From Anaerosoma tenue (lineage in GTDB: Bacteria; Actinomycetota; Coriobacteriia; Anaerosomatales; Anaerosomataceae): a stretch of 64,000 nt of DNA. The stretch is taken from contig NZ_JALNTY010000002.1 of the NCBI RefSeq assembly GCF_023161965.1, positions 460,552 to 524,551 on the forward strand, given 5' to 3'. Positions 8,332 to 64,000 of this stretch are shown in pieces (position 1 is the first letter of the stretch; each line of letters opens with the position of its first letter). The translations under genes were made by a program, and so were the position numbers. The notes below the pieces were generated by a model. That model saw nothing but the letters and a program-made list of their open reading frames with translations. It was not told the DNA's origin and ran no database searches.

Positions 8332-9543
8332 GTGAAACGGCTTGAAGACTACCGGGGCATCGTCTCCGACGAGATAATCACCGATCTGCACAGGCGGACG
8401 TCGCTGCTGCACGACAAGCACGTGGTGCACATGAACTCCACCGCGCAAGGCGGCGGGGTGGCAGAGATGCTGTATGCGCTCGTGCCGCTTATGAACGACG
8501 TGGGCGTGGACGCTGGATGGCGCGTGCTCGTTGGCAGCGACGACTTCTTTGGCGTGACCAAGAAGTTCCACAACGGGCTGCAGGGCGACCGGGTCAACCT
8601 CACCGAGAACAAGAAGCGCCTGTACGTCCAGGCCAATGAGAGCTTCTCGCAATACAACCATATCTCGCGTCACGACGCGGTCATCATTCACGATCCGCAG
8701 CCGTTGCCCATCATCCGCTTCTACAAGAAGCGTCAGCCCTGGATATGGCGCTGCCACATCGACCTCACCTCGCCGGATCCTGAGCTGTGGGAGTTCCTCA
8801 AGGGATACATCATGCGCTACGACCTCATGATCGTGAGCCACGAGCAGTATCTGCGGCCCGACCTCACCGTGGAGCAGCGCGTGATCAACCCTGCGATCGA
8901 CCCGCTCAACCAGAAGAACATCAGGCTGCCCGAGCGGACCGTGATGAAGTACATCAAGCGGCACGGTGTCCCGCTCGACAAGCCGCTCATCACCCAGGTC
9001 TCACGCTTCGACAAGTGGAAGGACCCCGAGGGCGTGGTGGAGGTCTTCAAGCGGGTGCGCGAGCGGGTCGACTGCAGGCTGGTGCTCGCAGGCAACATGG
9101 CCACCGACGACCCGGAAGGGCTCGCCATCTATGAGCGCGTCCGCAAGCGCGCGGGCCGGCTCATCGAGAGCGGGGACGTCATATTCCTGCTCGGAGCGAG
9201 CGACACAGCCATAAACGCGCTGCAGCGCGTCTCGAGCGTCGTGCTCCAGAAGTCGCTGCGGGAGGGCTTCGGACTCACCGTCTCGGAGGCGATGTGGAAG
9301 GGCACGCCGGTGGTCGCCGGTGCGGTGGGAGGCATCCCGCTGCAGGTGATCGATGGCGAGACGGGGTTCCTGGTCGATCCCGCCGATCTCGACCAGACGG
9401 CGGACCGTGTGGCCACGCTGCTGGAGGACCCGGTCCTCGCCGGGGCGATCGCCGAGCGGGGTGTGGAGCACGTGCGCGAGCACTTCCTCGTGACCCGTCT
9501 GCTCGGCCACTACCTCGAGCTCCTGGCCGAGCTGATCAGGTAG
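8332..9543 (+). CDS. treT: Trehalose glycosyltransferring synthase (GT4)
   Basis: A 403-residue GT4-family glycosyltransferase. The N-terminal VHMNSTAQGGGVAEML segment and the RCHIDLTSPD region are characteristic of TreT. The C-terminal domain has LREGFGLTVSEAMWKGTPVVAG, the nucleotide-sugar binding signature. TreT makes trehalose directly from NDP-glucose and glucose, and can run in reverse. The start is GTG with GAGAGGA 9 bases upstream. It is the second gene of an operon with the OtsA-OtsB fusion, so the cell holds two trehalose routes under one transcript; TreT may serve recovery of glucose from trehalose. Confidence 0.9.
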   Translation: MKRLEDYRGIVSDEIITDLHRRTSLLHDKHVVHMNSTAQGGGVAEMLYALVPLMNDVGVDAGWRVLVGSDDFFGVTKKFHNGLQGDRVNLTENKKRLYVQANESFSQYNHISRHDAVIIHDPQPLPIIRFYKKRQPWIWRCHIDLTSPDPELWEFLKGYIMRYDLMIVSHEQYLRPDLTVEQRVINPAIDPLNQKNIRLPERTVMKYIKRHGVPLDKPLITQVSRFDKWKDPEGVVEVFKRVRERVDCRLVLAGNMATDDPEGLAIYERVRKRAGRLIESGDVIFLLGASDTAINALQRVSSVVLQKSLREGFGLTVSEAMWKGTPVVAGAVGGIPLQVIDGETGFLVDPADLDQTADRVATLLEDPVLAGAIAERGVEHVREHFLVTRLLGHYLELLAELIR

Positions 9544-58339: not shown

Positions 58340-58516
58340 CTACTCGGTGAGCTCGGCGGACTCGAGCGTCATGTGACACGCCCAGCACGCGCTCTGGAAG
58401 TGGCCCGCTGGCGATTCCTGCGCGGGGTTGATCGTGGTGAGCATGAAGTGCATCGCGATCCACAGGAACAGCAGCACGCCAACGCCGACGCCGATCCAGG
58501 TTGCCGCCCTCTTCAT
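58340..58516 (-). CDS. Tiny membrane-anchored c-type haem-motif protein
   Basis: A 58-residue protein. A basic start (MKRAATW) leads into one hydrophobic helix (residues 7-27), then a short extracytoplasmic part containing SACWACHMT, a single CxxCH haem attachment motif (C44, C47, H48), with a methionine right after it and H39 as a possible distal ligand. GGAGGT lies 4 bases before the ATG. It may be a mini-cytochrome electron relay or a haem-binding accessory subunit. No other cytochrome gene is adjacent, so the partner is unknown. Confidence 0.7.
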   Translation of the reverse strand: MKRAATWIGVGVGVLLFLWIAMHFMLTTINPAQESPAGHFQSACWACHMTLESAELTE

Positions 58517-58638: not shown

Positions 58639-59370
58639 ATGGAGTTCTGGAGCAGCTACTGGTGGCCGTTGATCACTGCGATCATCGGTTTCGTGTACGT
58701 TGGCCTATTGGCGCGGCAGTGGTACACGCGTCGCAAGCCGCACCAGCTTGCGTGGGCGTTCGGCTTCCTGCTCTACGCCGTGGCCGCCTTCATGGAGTTC
58801 TACTCGGAGTTCACCCAGAACTGGGACCCTACCGTCTACCGCTTCTACATCGTCTTCGCCGCCTCGATGGTGGGCTTCCTGGGGCTTGGCACGCTGTATC
58901 TGGTGACCCGGAAGCGCACCTGGGGGCACGCCTACCTGGCCTTCAACCTCGTGATGCTCGCGGTCTTCCTGTGGGGGGCGTTCACCACCGAGCTTCACTA
59001 CGAGGCGTTGCAGCCGGGCATCGTGGTCGGCGGCGCGGGCCTGGGCGCGGCGGGCTCGTTCCCGCGCATCATGTCGCTCGCCTTCAATATCCCGGGCACG
59101 CTGCTCCTGATCGGCGGCTCGACTTACTCGATCATCCGCTTCTGGCCCAAGAAGGCGTACCGGTATCGCGTGTGGGCCAATGTGCTCATCATCATCGGCA
59201 CCCTTGCGATCGCCGGGGCCGGCTCGATGGCGCGCGCCGGAGCCACGCAGGGCCTCTACTTCGCCGAGATGGTCGCCAGCGCTATCCTGCTTGCCGGCTT
59301 TCTCATGGCGAGCACGCTGCAGAAGGGAGCCGAGGCGGCCCGCACGGAGGGACAGGGGCGTCGCACGTGA
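58639..59370 (+). CDS. Seven-TM membrane protein
   Basis: A 243-residue protein with seven predicted membrane helices and short loops, opening MEFWSSYWWPLITAIIGF. It has no retinal lysine and no kinase domain; the family is not recognised. GAGGGGGAG is just upstream of the ATG at 58639. The last four bases overlap the start of the tocopherol-cyclase-like gene (GTGA), so it belongs to that operon and might house or transport the pathway's lipid substrate. Confidence 0.72.
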   Translation: MEFWSSYWWPLITAIIGFVYVGLLARQWYTRRKPHQLAWAFGFLLYAVAAFMEFYSEFTQNWDPTVYRFYIVFAASMVGFLGLGTLYLVTRKRTWGHAYLAFNLVMLAVFLWGAFTTELHYEALQPGIVVGGAGLGAAGSFPRIMSLAFNIPGTLLLIGGSTYSIIRFWPKKAYRYRVWANVLIIIGTLAIAGAGSMARAGATQGLYFAEMVASAILLAGFLMASTLQKGAEAARTEGQGRRT

Positions 59371-60398
59371 ACGACCTGCTTGCCGCAACCGCACGCTCGG
59401 CGCCACTCGCCCATCGGTTCTCCAAGCTGTGGCATCCCGACTGGTACCAGGACGGCCCCAAGCGGCGGGGCTACTTCGAAGGCTGGTACCTCAAGTGTGT
59501 GGATGCCGACGCACGGCATGCGGTTGCGCTCATCCCCGGGATCTCGCTCACGCCCGACGGAGTCGGCTCCCATGCGTTCGTGCAGCTGATCCGTGCCGGT
59601 GGGACCACAGCGTACTGGGAATACCCGGCCGAGGAGTTCCGCTTCGCGACCGATCGCTTCGAGATCGAAGTGGGGCCCAACCGGTTCTCCTCGGAAGGCG
59701 CGTGGCTCGATGCCGATGGTGCGGCGGGTCGGCTCACAGGTGAACTGCGCTTCGGCGAGTGGGTGGGCTGGCCAGTCAGGCCGCTCTCGCCGGGTGTCAT
59801 GGGTTGGTACCGGTTCGTGCCGTTCATGGAGACGTACCACGGTGTGCTCGGGCTCGATCACGCTGTGGACGGCGGTCTTGAGATCGACGGCGCCAGCCTC
59901 AGCTTCGACGGCGGGCGCGGCTACGTTGAGAAGGACTGGGGCCGATCGTTCCCGAGCGCGTGGGTCTGGGCGCAAAGCAATCACTTCGGGACGCCGGGGA
60001 TCTCGATGATGATCTCGGTAGCCCGCATCCCGTGGCTCGGCGGTTCGTTCGTGGGCTACATCGTAGGGCTGCTGCACGATGGGGAGCTCCACGAGTTCAC
60101 CACCTACAACGGCGCGAAGATGCGGGCGTTCTCCATCCGGGACGGTGAAGCGCGCATGGCGCTTGAGCAGGCCGGCTTGCGTCTCGAACTCACAGTCGAG
60201 GGCGCGCATCCGGGGGAACTCCGCTCGCCGGTGCTCGGCGCGATGGACGGCACGGTGTGGGAGAGTCTCGATGCGAGCATCGGCGTGAAGCTGACCCGTG
60301 GAGACGCGCTCCTGTTCGAGGGCCGGGGGCTGCACGCGGGCGTGGAGCTCATGGATCAGGCCGGGGAGCTTGAGGCCGGTCTTACGCGGAGGAAGTAG
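59367..60398 (+). CDS. Tocopherol cyclase-like protein
   Basis: A 343-residue protein matching the tocopherol cyclase family (two beta-barrel-like lipocalin-type halves). Typical segments are the N-terminal WYQDGPKRRGYFEGWYLKC and the central GYVEKDWGRSFPSAWVWAQSNHF. Plant and cyanobacterial members close the chromanol ring of vitamin E; non-photosynthetic members act on other lipophilic substrates or are uncharacterised. No homogentisate prenyltransferase is present here, so tocopherol synthesis is unlikely. The start is GTG, overlapping the preceding stop. Confidence 0.85.
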   Translation: MNDLLAATARSAPLAHRFSKLWHPDWYQDGPKRRGYFEGWYLKCVDADARHAVALIPGISLTPDGVGSHAFVQLIRAGGTTAYWEYPAEEFRFATDRFEIEVGPNRFSSEGAWLDADGAAGRLTGELRFGEWVGWPVRPLSPGVMGWYRFVPFMETYHGVLGLDHAVDGGLEIDGASLSFDGGRGYVEKDWGRSFPSAWVWAQSNHFGTPGISMMISVARIPWLGGSFVGYIVGLLHDGELHEFTTYNGAKMRAFSIRDGEARMALEQAGLRLELTVEGAHPGELRSPVLGAMDGTVWESLDASIGVKLTRGDALLFEGRGLHAGVELMDQAGELEAGLTRRK

Positions 60399-60462
60399 AC
60401 GGGGCATCGCAGCACCGTCAGACTTCGACGTGTCAGCGCGCCTCACAACTGGAGACATCGCG

Positions 60463-61386
60463 ATGAGACCTGCAGACCTTCGGCGCTACGTGAGGAACAC
60501 CGAGAAGACCGTCGTGCCGGGCACGGTGGCGATGCGGGTTCAGGGCATGGGCATCCTGCGCAAGCTGCCCCGCTGGCTGCAGAACCGCATCGTCGAGCAC
60601 GGGTCGCGTACCGATCCGTACATGAGCTTCATCGTGGAGCCGTACGCGGTCTTCCTGTCCTTCGAGATTACCGATCCGGACGCGGCCGGGCGGCTCCTCC
60701 CGCCGGGCTATCGCCTGCATCCTTCGGCGATGTTCGCTGACACGCCCCCGCGACCCTGTGCGATCGTGAGCGCGTTCAACGTGCACACCAACGTCTTCTG
60801 GGGCAGCCGGGTGGAGTTCTACCTCATGGCCGAGAACGCCGAGACCGGTCTGCTCTCGTGGATCATCGAGGAATACGAGAGCAACGCCCCGAGCTACGAT
60901 CCGGCAAGCGGCTTCGCACTGCCGAGCACGTCGCATTCTGTCGTCTCCACCTCGTATCGCGGTGAGGTCATCGTAGAGATGTCGAGCGAGCAGTCCGGCA
61001 ACGGCCTCTCGCTCGTCGCCGACATGACGAATGCCGTGCGCACCCCGCTCGACCAGCGCGTGTGGGTGGAGGGCAACCTCTCGGTCGACTACGGCAGCGA
61101 CCTGCAGCAGTCCACCAAGCCGTTCGGTCTGATCTTCGATCCCGGGGAGATGGCCGAGGCGCTGAAGCTGCCGCTCGAGGACATCTCGCTGTGCGTGAAC
61201 ACGTTCGGGCGAGGCATGCTCGACCCGAAGCCCTTCGAGGCGGCGGTCTTCCCGTACGCGCAGCATTTCGTCACCACGACCTACCCCACGGCGACATCGA
61301 TGCGCACGGCCGAGGATCTCGAGCGCGCGGTGGACGAGATGAACGACAGGCTGGGAGCCGTCGGAGAGAGCACATGCGAAACGTGA
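60463..61386 (+). CDS. Hypothetical protein of the tocopherol-cyclase-like operon
   Basis: A 307-residue soluble protein I cannot assign with certainty. It is beta-rich, and some segments (VFLSFEITDPDAAGRLLPPGYRLHPSAMF, ...VEFYLMAENAETGLLSWIIEEYES) resemble acetoacetate decarboxylase-like folds, but a catalytic lysine could not be placed. The ATG at 60463 has GGAG 8 bases upstream. Its end overlaps the next gene by 13 bases, so the two are coupled. Confidence 0.6.
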   Translation: MRPADLRRYVRNTEKTVVPGTVAMRVQGMGILRKLPRWLQNRIVEHGSRTDPYMSFIVEPYAVFLSFEITDPDAAGRLLPPGYRLHPSAMFADTPPRPCAIVSAFNVHTNVFWGSRVEFYLMAENAETGLLSWIIEEYESNAPSYDPASGFALPSTSHSVVSTSYRGEVIVEMSSEQSGNGLSLVADMTNAVRTPLDQRVWVEGNLSVDYGSDLQQSTKPFGLIFDPGEMAEALKLPLEDISLCVNTFGRGMLDPKPFEAAVFPYAQHFVTTTYPTATSMRTAEDLERAVDEMNDRLGAVGESTCET

Positions 61387-62009
61387 GGGTCGCATGTGTA
61401 GGCGACAGCATCACCCGCGGGACGTTCGCCTGGCGCCGGAGGGTCAACGCGTACCCTGCACAGTTGCAGGAGATGCTCGGGAGCGGGTACCGCGTACGCA
61501 ACTTCGGTGTGAATGCACATGCCGCACAGCGGTCCGCGGACTTCCCGTACTGGAGCAGTAAGGCGTTCGCTGAGAGCTCCTCGTTCGCTCCCCACATCGT
61601 GCTCATCATGCTCGGCACCAACGATTCCAGAGGCGACAACTGGAAGAGCCTGAGCGCGTTCGCCCACGACTATCGGGAACTGGTCGTCCACTACCTGTCC
61701 CTCGATTCACACCCGGCGGCATGGCTGCTCACGCCTCCGACGCTTTTCCGGCTCGGACGCAGCACGAAGGTCCGCTACGGCATGGACGAGCTGGCGCTGG
61801 CGGAGATGTGCGGCGCGATCAAGGAAATCGCGGACGACCTCGGCTGCGGGCTCATCGACGTCAACGCCATCACCGCCGAGCATCCGGAGGCGCTCAGGTT
61901 CGACGGGGTGCACCCCGGAGCGGCGGGTCAGACGCTGATCGCCGAGGCGGTCTTCGAGGCGCTGTCGGGGAGCATCGCGTCTCAAGACCAAGGAGATACG
62001 CATGTCTAG
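61374..62009 (+). CDS. SGNH/GDSL-family hydrolase
   Basis: A 211-residue esterase-type hydrolase. Block I GDSIT (catalytic Ser near residue 10), block II NFGVN, block III GTND and block V DGVHP (catalytic Asp and His) are all present. It probably removes an acyl or acetyl group. No signal peptide is seen, so it is cytosolic. It overlaps its neighbours on both sides (13 and 8 bases), tying it into the same operon. Confidence 0.88.
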   Translation: MRNVRVACVGDSITRGTFAWRRRVNAYPAQLQEMLGSGYRVRNFGVNAHAAQRSADFPYWSSKAFAESSSFAPHIVLIMLGTNDSRGDNWKSLSAFAHDYRELVVHYLSLDSHPAAWLLTPPTLFRLGRSTKVRYGMDELALAEMCGAIKEIADDLGCGLIDVNAITAEHPEALRFDGVHPGAAGQTLIAEAVFEALSGSIASQDQGDTHV

Positions 62010-62826
62010 CACACTCAGCGGCAAGGTCGTGGTGATCACGGGCTCAACGCGCGGCATCGGCCGTGCGATGGCCGAGGCCTGCGCCGATGCGGGCGCGACC
62101 GTGGTGGTGAGCTCTCGCACTGTGGGCGCGGTCGATGAAACGGTGGAGGCACTCAGAGACCGCGGCGCGCAGGCTTCGGGAATACCGTGCGACGTGGCCG
62201 ACCCGGCAGCGCTTGAGGCGCTGCTGGCACACGCGATCGAGACGCACGGCGGCGTAGACGTGTGGGTGAACAACGCTGGTATCTCGCTCGGCCTGCGCAC
62301 TCACATCGACACGTCGCCCGACGAGATCCGTTCGATCGTGGACATCAACCTCATCGGCACGATGCTGGCGTCCAGGATGGTGGTGCCGTACTTCGTCGAG
62401 CGTGGAAGCGGTGTGCTCATCAACGTCTCCGGCAGGGGAGGACGGGGAGACGCGGCAGCGTACACGGCCGCATACGCCGCCACCAAAGCGGGCGTGATGG
62501 TCTTCACTCGGAGCCTCGCGGCCGAGCATGAGGACGATCCCGTCTCGATCCTCGTGTTCATGCCGGGGATGGTGGACACTGACTTCTACGGCGCCGACAT
62601 GGCCGTGACGCCAGGCCTGGAGCCGATCGTGGACAACGTGCGGGTCGTGCTCGACGCCATCGGCACGCCGATCGAGGCGGTAGGTCCAGCGCTTGTGGAC
62701 GCCGCATGCACCGTTCCGGGCAAGGGATCGGGTGAGGTGCGTCGTGCGGGCAGTGCCGTACGGGGCATGCTCGGCGGCTTCAAGCTGATGTGGGCACGCA
62801 TCACGGGACGCATGGAACCGATGTAG
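62002..62826 (+). CDS. Short-chain dehydrogenase/reductase
   Basis: A 274-residue SDR. The cofactor loop is TGSTRGIGRA, then VNNAG, and the catalytic region INVSGRGGRGDAAAYTAAYAATKAG, which keeps Ser, Tyr and Lys. Asp/Arg positions after the first loop (SSRTVG) suggest NADP(H). The last 40 residues form an extra C-terminal segment. Last gene of the 58639-62826 operon; the substrate is presumably a ketone or alcohol made by the same pathway. Confidence 0.9.
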   Translation: MSSTLSGKVVVITGSTRGIGRAMAEACADAGATVVVSSRTVGAVDETVEALRDRGAQASGIPCDVADPAALEALLAHAIETHGGVDVWVNNAGISLGLRTHIDTSPDEIRSIVDINLIGTMLASRMVVPYFVERGSGVLINVSGRGGRGDAAAYTAAYAATKAGVMVFTRSLAAEHEDDPVSILVFMPGMVDTDFYGADMAVTPGLEPIVDNVRVVLDAIGTPIEAVGPALVDAACTVPGKGSGEVRRAGSAVRGMLGGFKLMWARITGRMEPM

Positions 62827-62852: not shown

Positions 62853-63431
62853 CTACACGAGCCCTACCGCGCCAAGCGCCGCCTCGATGATCGTCGGGTC
62901 GGCCGAGTCGTCAGCGAAGACATCATGCACGCATCCCGGAGCCGAGAGCGAAAGGCTTATGGGCTGCATCAGGCAGCCGAGATAGCACGACGCGAGCACG
63001 CGTGCATCGCCGTCGCGTACGCCGCCCTCCGCTCGCGCGCGCTCGATGACGCTGGCGATGATGTCGATGGGCAGGTCATCGGCGGGCATGCTGGCGAGCG
63101 CCGCGGGCGGGGCCTGCACAAGGGCGAACACAAACGCCGCGGGCCGCTCTCGATACAGTGCGAGCACGCGGGCGGCCATCGCGCGGAGCGATTCCAGCGG
63201 TGTGTCGCGCCGCGAGGCGGCGACCAGCTCCTCCCCGAAGAGCGACATGGCCTGCAGGTGCAGCTCGCGCGCCAGGTCCTCCTTGGAGGCGAAGTGTCGG
63301 TAGAGGGCGCCCTCGGACACGCCGGCCGCCTGCGCGATATCCCGTATGCGGGTGGCGTCGTAGCCGGTGCGTGCGAAGCAGGACAGCGCAGCATCCACGA
63401 TCGCCGCCTGACTGCTCGGCCTCGGTGTCAT
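62853..63431 (-). CDS. TetR-family regulator
   Basis: A 192-residue TetR/AcrR regulator: AAIVDAALSCFARTGYDATRIRDIAQAAGVSEGALYRHFASKEDLARE is a complete helix-turn-helix domain. The C-terminal domain has few charged groups and two cysteines late on. It overlaps the nitroreductase gene by four bases (ATGA), so it is the downstream member of that pair; convergent with the SDR gene. Confidence 0.9.
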   Translation of the reverse strand: MTPRPSSQAAIVDAALSCFARTGYDATRIRDIAQAAGVSEGALYRHFASKEDLARELHLQAMSLFGEELVAASRRDTPLESLRAMAARVLALYRERPAAFVFALVQAPPAALASMPADDLPIDIIASVIERARAEGGVRDGDARVLASCYLGCLMQPISLSLSAPGCVHDVFADDSADPTIIEAALGAVGLV

Positions 63432-64000
63432 GATGCGGTGTGGGGAACGAACCGGGCCACTTCATCGTTCCGGTCGGTGGTCCATCGTCCGGAGACACCC
63501 GCATGCTCTGCGCCAAGCTCGGCGTGGAGCATCGCGATACCGAAGTCGATCGGCGCGGTCCAGTAGACCTTCGGGGCTTCCGTGATCACGAGCGCGTCGC
63601 CGTCCATGTGCAGCCTCCATGGTTGCTTGTTGGCTCCCGAAGGGGCCAGGCGCAGGGCCGCGGCCGCCTCCCGCGCCCATGCAGGCCAGTCCCCATGACC
63701 GGGCGCGATCGTATCCATCGGCAGCCGTTTCCTGGCGCTCAGCGAAGCCCGCATCAGCTTCTCCGAGATGCCGGTCTTGTCGGTGGCGTGTCCCAGTGCG
63801 GTGATTGCGTGCACGCGCTCGCCCTCGCCGAGTTCGGCAAGCCGGCCTGCGCGCTCGGGGTCGAAGGATGCGGCGATCCAGCACGTATCGAGCCCGAGCA
63901 TGGTGGCCTCGAGGATGACCGCCTCGCCCACGTAGCCGATGTCGTGAGCTGCGTCATCCGTGCCCACGAACGCCACGAGCGACGGGGAATCCTCCACCCG
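63428..64000 (-). CDS. Nitroreductase-family flavoprotein (5' truncated)
   Basis: At least 190 residues of a nitroreductase-like FMN protein; the N-terminus is beyond the window. Visible are the domain-end motif GYVGEAVILEATMLGLDTCWIAASFD and a repeated flavin-binding segment AAALRLAPSGANKQPWRLH, which is usually N-terminal; its position here indicates an extended or tandem arrangement of the putative TM-nitroreductase type. Transcribed ahead of the TetR gene with a four-base overlap. Confidence 0.78.
   Translation of the reverse strand, partial: RVEDSPSLVAFVGTDDAAHDIGYVGEAVILEATMLGLDTCWIAASFDPERAGRLAELGEGERVHAITALGHATDKTGISEKLMRASLSARKRLPMDTIAPGHGDWPAWAREAAAALRLAPSGANKQPWRLHMDGDALVITEAPKVYWTAPIDFGIAMLHAELGAEHAGVSGRWTTDRNDEVARFVPHTAS

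Follow-up and report, generated by a model that had tools for sequence, protein, structure and literature searches.

A study published in 2016 reported tocopherol-cyclase-like proteins from heterotrophic bacteria and found no activity of the Arabidopsis tocopherol cyclase on menaquinol-4 (PMC4963081). The Anaerosomatales in culture are anaerobes capable of chemolithotrophic growth, and two of them gave no detectable respiratory quinones (PMC9686372). The window analyzed here, a stretch of 64,000 nucleotides from a genome of 2.1 Mb, carries a gene for a tocopherol-cyclase-like protein inside a block of five genes on one strand, which we call A to E, with two genes converging on its end:

Gene A, 58639..59370, + strand, multi-spanning membrane protein of 243 aa, no Pfam family
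Gene B, 59367..60398, + strand, tocopherol-cyclase-like protein (PF14249) of 343 aa, GTG start, predicted lipocalin-type fold
Gene C, 60463..61386, + strand, protein of 307 aa from an undescribed family, no Pfam or NCBIfam name
Gene D, 61374..62009, + strand, SGNH/GDSL hydrolase of 211 aa
Gene E, 62002..62826, + strand, short-chain dehydrogenase (SDR) of 274 aa
TetR-family regulator, 62853..63431, - strand, convergent with E (Pfam)
TM1586-type nitroreductase, 63428..64000, - strand, extending past the window edge (Pfam)

The initial annotation read the frames and junctions of the block correctly: A and B overlap by 4 bases, B and C are separated by 64 bases, and C/D and D/E overlap by 13 and 8 bases, respectively. 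Homologues of all five genes keep the frame, so A to E are real genes and not chance readings. Pfam matches identify B (PF14249, E 1.9e-17, cut-off passed), D (GDSL lipase/SGNH, E 3.6e-20), and E (SDR, E 4.3e-48) and confirm the adjacent minus-strand TetR and nitroreductase pair; A and C match no Pfam family. Seven transmembrane segments were initially assigned to A, and hydrophobic segments are visible in its sequence. Gene E has the TGxxxGIG and YxxxK motifs of SDRs. No terminator-like site was seen inside the block. There was no sign of a phage or defense cassette: PADLOC gave no match for the block and PHROGs gave only generic lipase/tail matches, for D alone. Divergent from A, an ORF of 58 aa at 58340-58516 (- strand) has one hydrophobic segment and a CWACH heme-binding motif and is possibly a tiny membrane-anchored c-type cytochrome.

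Conservation of the five genes across the order

Across 69 genomes of the Coriobacteriia order (Anaerosomatales by nearest named relatives), all five genes occur together only in the window genome. Gene A is present in 44 of the 69, mostly at other loci, and gene B in 27, with three further matches outside the order in the same search. Gene C is intact in 14 and fragmented in two more. The initial annotation proposed a lipid-modifying or isoprenoid pathway and named scattering of the five genes in relatives as evidence against it; that is largely what we find. Because A, B, and C-D are separately located in nearly all relatives, a fixed five-gene pathway is unsupported. Co-occurrence exceeds expectation for B with C (10 of 14; within-family permutation p about 0.02-0.03) and for A with B (24 of 27; p about 0.05-0.07). 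The excess is weak after within-family permutation, and functional ties among the unlinked genes are possible because of it.

Genes C and D form the most recurrent part. They are adjacent in five genomes (G000, G012, G018, G020, and G052), reversed as D-C in G061, and near each other in G056, such that the two are linked in 7 of the 14 genomes with intact C, a count that, like those for E and Hcp, comes from the loci read. The order B-C-D recurs once outside the window, in G020. A genome of the same genus, G016, carries B but not C-D; alignment of these two loci holds through the end of B and breaks off beyond it, a pattern that fits insertion or loss of C-D immediately after B. In G052, a member of another family (f5), an E orthologue 88.7% identical to that of the window lies beside a frame-broken D copy, ∼9 kb from an intact C-D pair; this second D copy (L194:17147-17520) is directly behind the intact E orthologue. 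In G012, C-D is accompanied by a divergent nitroreductase 67% identical to that of the window, and A and B are absent. An MsrA gene is downstream of D in G020, and other neighbors of C include RibD_C-type, GNAT, ADH, and peptidase genes. A TetR gene was not found beside C at other loci. A decayed copy of C with an internal deletion and a broken frame is present in another member of the order (G005; L099, about 8744-9340).

In the C tree, the families of the order are intermixed. Families f1 and f12/f15 are each placed at more than one position in the C tree, and the window C is 82% identical to that of G052 (family f5) versus 73% to that of G013, a member of its own family. Several genomes of the same family likewise have a C more distant from the window C than that of G052. 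Horizontal transfer and differential loss both fit this distribution; we suggest that C-D is a patchy core that probably moves horizontally. A search of about 390 sampled Actinomycetota genomes outside the order turned up no C, nor did one of phages and viral contigs. A homologue with 37% identity and an extra C-terminal hydrophobic segment is on a plasmid of Lactococcus garvieae, where MerR, SDR, and ArsC/Spx-type genes are its neighbors. The plasmid SDR was rejected as an E orthologue (29% identity). The plasmid homologue (L152:6125-7114) overlaps the end of a resolvase-family gene.

Gene A has a usual locus of its own. Eleven of the 15 loci read, all of them from the family of the window genome, have A between an unnamed gene of 297 aa and genes for a Crp/Fnr regulator, YgbA_NO, a ferredoxin, and a hybrid cluster protein (Hcp), with two divergent WYL regulators. 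The order in these loci is WYL-WYL, unnamed, A, Crp, YgbA, ferredoxin, Hcp (L179, L180, L182-L189, and L192). Four loci from other families lack the Hcp/YgbA/Crp context, and in the window none of Crp/Fnr, YgbA_NO, ferredoxin, or Hcp is beside A. In other bacteria, Hcp and YgbA are part of the response to nitric oxide. Gene A is likely tied to nitric-oxide defense.

Genes B and C and the possible prenyl lipids of the host

The initial description of B as a tocopherol-cyclase-like protein in a nonphototroph holds. Its match to PF14249 scores 63.8 bits against a cut-off of 26.6 and covers profile positions 144-332 of 335. A structure model built from 45 sequences has a pLDDT of 91.5, and its best structural matches are CghA, Fsa2, Phm7, AttH, kievitone hydratase, and 25-phosphosteroid lyase (Z about 17-23; top match Z 23.0, rmsd 3.4, 295 residues aligned). 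By this model, B shares the lipocalin-type fold with AttH and Diels-Alderases. The nearest named matches of B are in Coriobacteriia and Anaerosomatales metagenome-assembled genomes (MAGs), and further relatives are in MAGs labeled Bacteroidales, Heimdallarchaeota, Clostridia, and others. No neighbor of B recurs in 47 genome_contigs loci or in 20 loci of the order. Tocopherol or carotenoid genes beside B were considered and rejected, since among the top 25 of 223 families no neighbor family recurs in 114 flanking proteins of the genome_contigs loci, a scope under which single cases may exist. A DUF1611 gene is near B in the opposite direction in three loci (L173-L175), and in G052 a B-like protein and a DUF1611 protein share one frame of 772 aa (L004:4574-6889, G052:C41).

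Gene C is strongly conserved, with about half of its alignment columns invariant across the order. Sequence searches match it neither to solved structures nor to PF06314 or DUF2071 (no Pfam match at E 10; hmmsearch no better than reversed sequences), and C was rejected as a named acetoacetate decarboxylase (ADC) or DUF2071 protein. Profile alignment to acetoacetate decarboxylase with hhalign gave P 0.008 over one short motif, with a score of 25.5 versus at most 23.8 across 30 column shuffles. When a poor model (built from two sequences; pLDDT 36) was compared with known structures, its ten best matches were all of acetoacetate-decarboxylase type, over residues about 61-250 and with Z of 4.2-5.2. 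An acetoacetate-decarboxylase-like fold for the product of the gene at 60463, a comparison proposed in the initial annotation, is weakly suggested by this low-confidence model and one motif. No lysine is invariant across 15 C homologues, which excludes classical Schiff-base chemistry even if the fold is right.

The initial claim that no prenyltransferase is present holds for the operon but not for the genome, which encodes two UbiA-family proteins, both matched best by MenA models. One is MenA above curated cut-offs (L157:7902-8819) and the second is MenA-like (L158:7875-8885), in an order in which quinones were undetectable in two cultured members. Since MenA is encoded, prenylated naphthoquinols are possible in the window genome. 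Phytoene/squalene synthase (SQS_PSY) was not found in the 69 genomes of the order. The presence of MenA and the lack of a carotenoid or squalene synthase narrow the likely substrates of B.

Explanations for the block

We favor, with about even confidence, the explanation that the block is a single transcription unit whose parts differ in history and were joined in this lineage, with C-D-E predicted to act on a lipophilic ester and B to act apart. The parts are an order-wide A, an order-wide stand-alone B, and a patchy accessory core of C-D with the SDR E, located beside the TetR/nitroreductase pair. Separate histories are indicated because the five genes are together in only one of 69 genomes and because the downstream flank of B switches between G020 and G016. 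The core is predicted to modify a small lipophilic ester: D would hydrolyze the ester in the cytosol, E would oxidize or reduce the alcohol or ketone so freed, and C would bind or convert the oxo product by other chemistry, perhaps as an acetoacetate-decarboxylase-like barrel that lacks a Schiff-base lysine. The order of reactions across C-D-E is a guess from enzyme classes. Several fold relatives of B act on isoprenoid side chains or by cyclization. Like them, B could catalyze an acid-catalyzed addition to, or cyclization at, an isoprenoid double bond. The likeliest class of endogenous prenylated substrate would be a MenA-made naphthoquinol, though the plant enzyme rejects menaquinol-4.

A TetR-controlled island that detoxifies oxidized or nitrated small molecules and reactive nitrogen species, with the nitroreductase, SDR, esterase, and C degrading or reducing toxicants and with A derived from an Hcp-type nitric-oxide stress locus, is doubtful though still credible. 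The usual association of A with Crp/Fnr, YgbA_NO, ferredoxin, and Hcp (11 of the 15 loci, each in the family of the window genome), the nitroreductase beside C-D in G012, MsrA downstream of D in G020, and the MerR, SDR, and ArsC/Spx-type neighbors of the plasmid C homologue are all consistent with it. However, stress genes are not constant beside C, which also neighbors RibD_C-type, GNAT, ADH, and peptidase genes. The functional link initially suspected for the TetR/nitroreductase pair recurs for the nitroreductase, which adjoins C-D in one relative (G012). No TetR gene was found beside C at other loci, which speaks against the island. In a dedicated lipid or isoprenoid pathway, as initially proposed, the five products would act one after another on a single prenylated lipid: B would cyclize it into an antioxidant of chromanol type, D and E would trim and oxidize it, and A would sense or export it. 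The tight gene overlaps, the B-C-D order in G020, the co-occurrence of B with C and of A with B above chance, and MenA in the genome argue for such a pathway. We nonetheless consider it unlikely: A and B are both widespread in genomes that lack C-D-E, no neighbor of B recurs across the 47 genome_contigs and 20 order loci, plant tocopherol cyclase does not use menaquinol-4 (PMC4963081), and the two cultured Anaerosomatales yielded no respiratory quinones (PMC9686372).

A last possibility is that genes with no function in common lie side by side by chance in a compact genome, which would fit the differing contexts of A, B, and C-D, upstream and downstream, across the order. Such an origin is quite improbable, as C and D are neighbors in several families, once in reversed order, and E recurs together with a D copy in G052. 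An extended version of the favored explanation, in which C founds a lysine-free branch of the ADC fold and together with D and E performs an undescribed, horizontally moving ester transformation, coupled in this species to a cyclized menaquinol-type lipid that B would make under nitrosative stress, seems to us very unlikely.

Comparison with known systems

Gene B shares PF14249 and the motifs YxEKxWG and FPxxWxWxQxNxF with tocopherol cyclase (VTE1) and with the heterotroph tocopherol-cyclase-like proteins, and it belongs to the latter group (PMC4963081). The second motif is present in B as FPSAWVWAQSNHF. In the first, where phototroph enzymes have an exact YxEKNWG (PMC4963081), B reads YVEKDWG; this change from N to D distinguishes B from VTE1, and the D is invariant in 45 B-type sequences. 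The host differs as well, with only MenA-like UbiA members and no SQS_PSY in the window genome. Relative to the AttH/CrtC-type lipocalin-like superfamily, the model of B matches over nearly its whole length (256-297 residues), but sequence identity is about 8-12% and no polyketide, carotenoid, or sterol genes were seen near B. New here are a confident model of how a tocopherol-cyclase-like protein from a heterotroph folds, the occurrence of B-type proteins across Anaerosomatales, Bacteroidales, and other phyla, and a likely setting of gene A in nitrosative stress.

The likeness of C to the acetoacetate decarboxylase superfamily is weak, consisting of a D..AA..LLP.GY motif and the matches of the low-confidence model, and C differs in its lack of both a Pfam ADC or DUF2071 match and the invariant lysine. 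As a strongly conserved, patchy, and unnamed family, C is worth a structure. Gene D has all four blocks of SGNH/GDSL esterases (GDSIT, FGVN, GTND, and DGVHP), corresponding to the GDS, Gly, GxND, and DxxH blocks it has in common with AxeA1-type and lysophospholipase L1-like enzymes (PF13472). Unlike these, D is a stand-alone protein with no evident signal peptide and is tied to C, and this recurring partnership of an esterase with an unnamed conserved family is likewise new.
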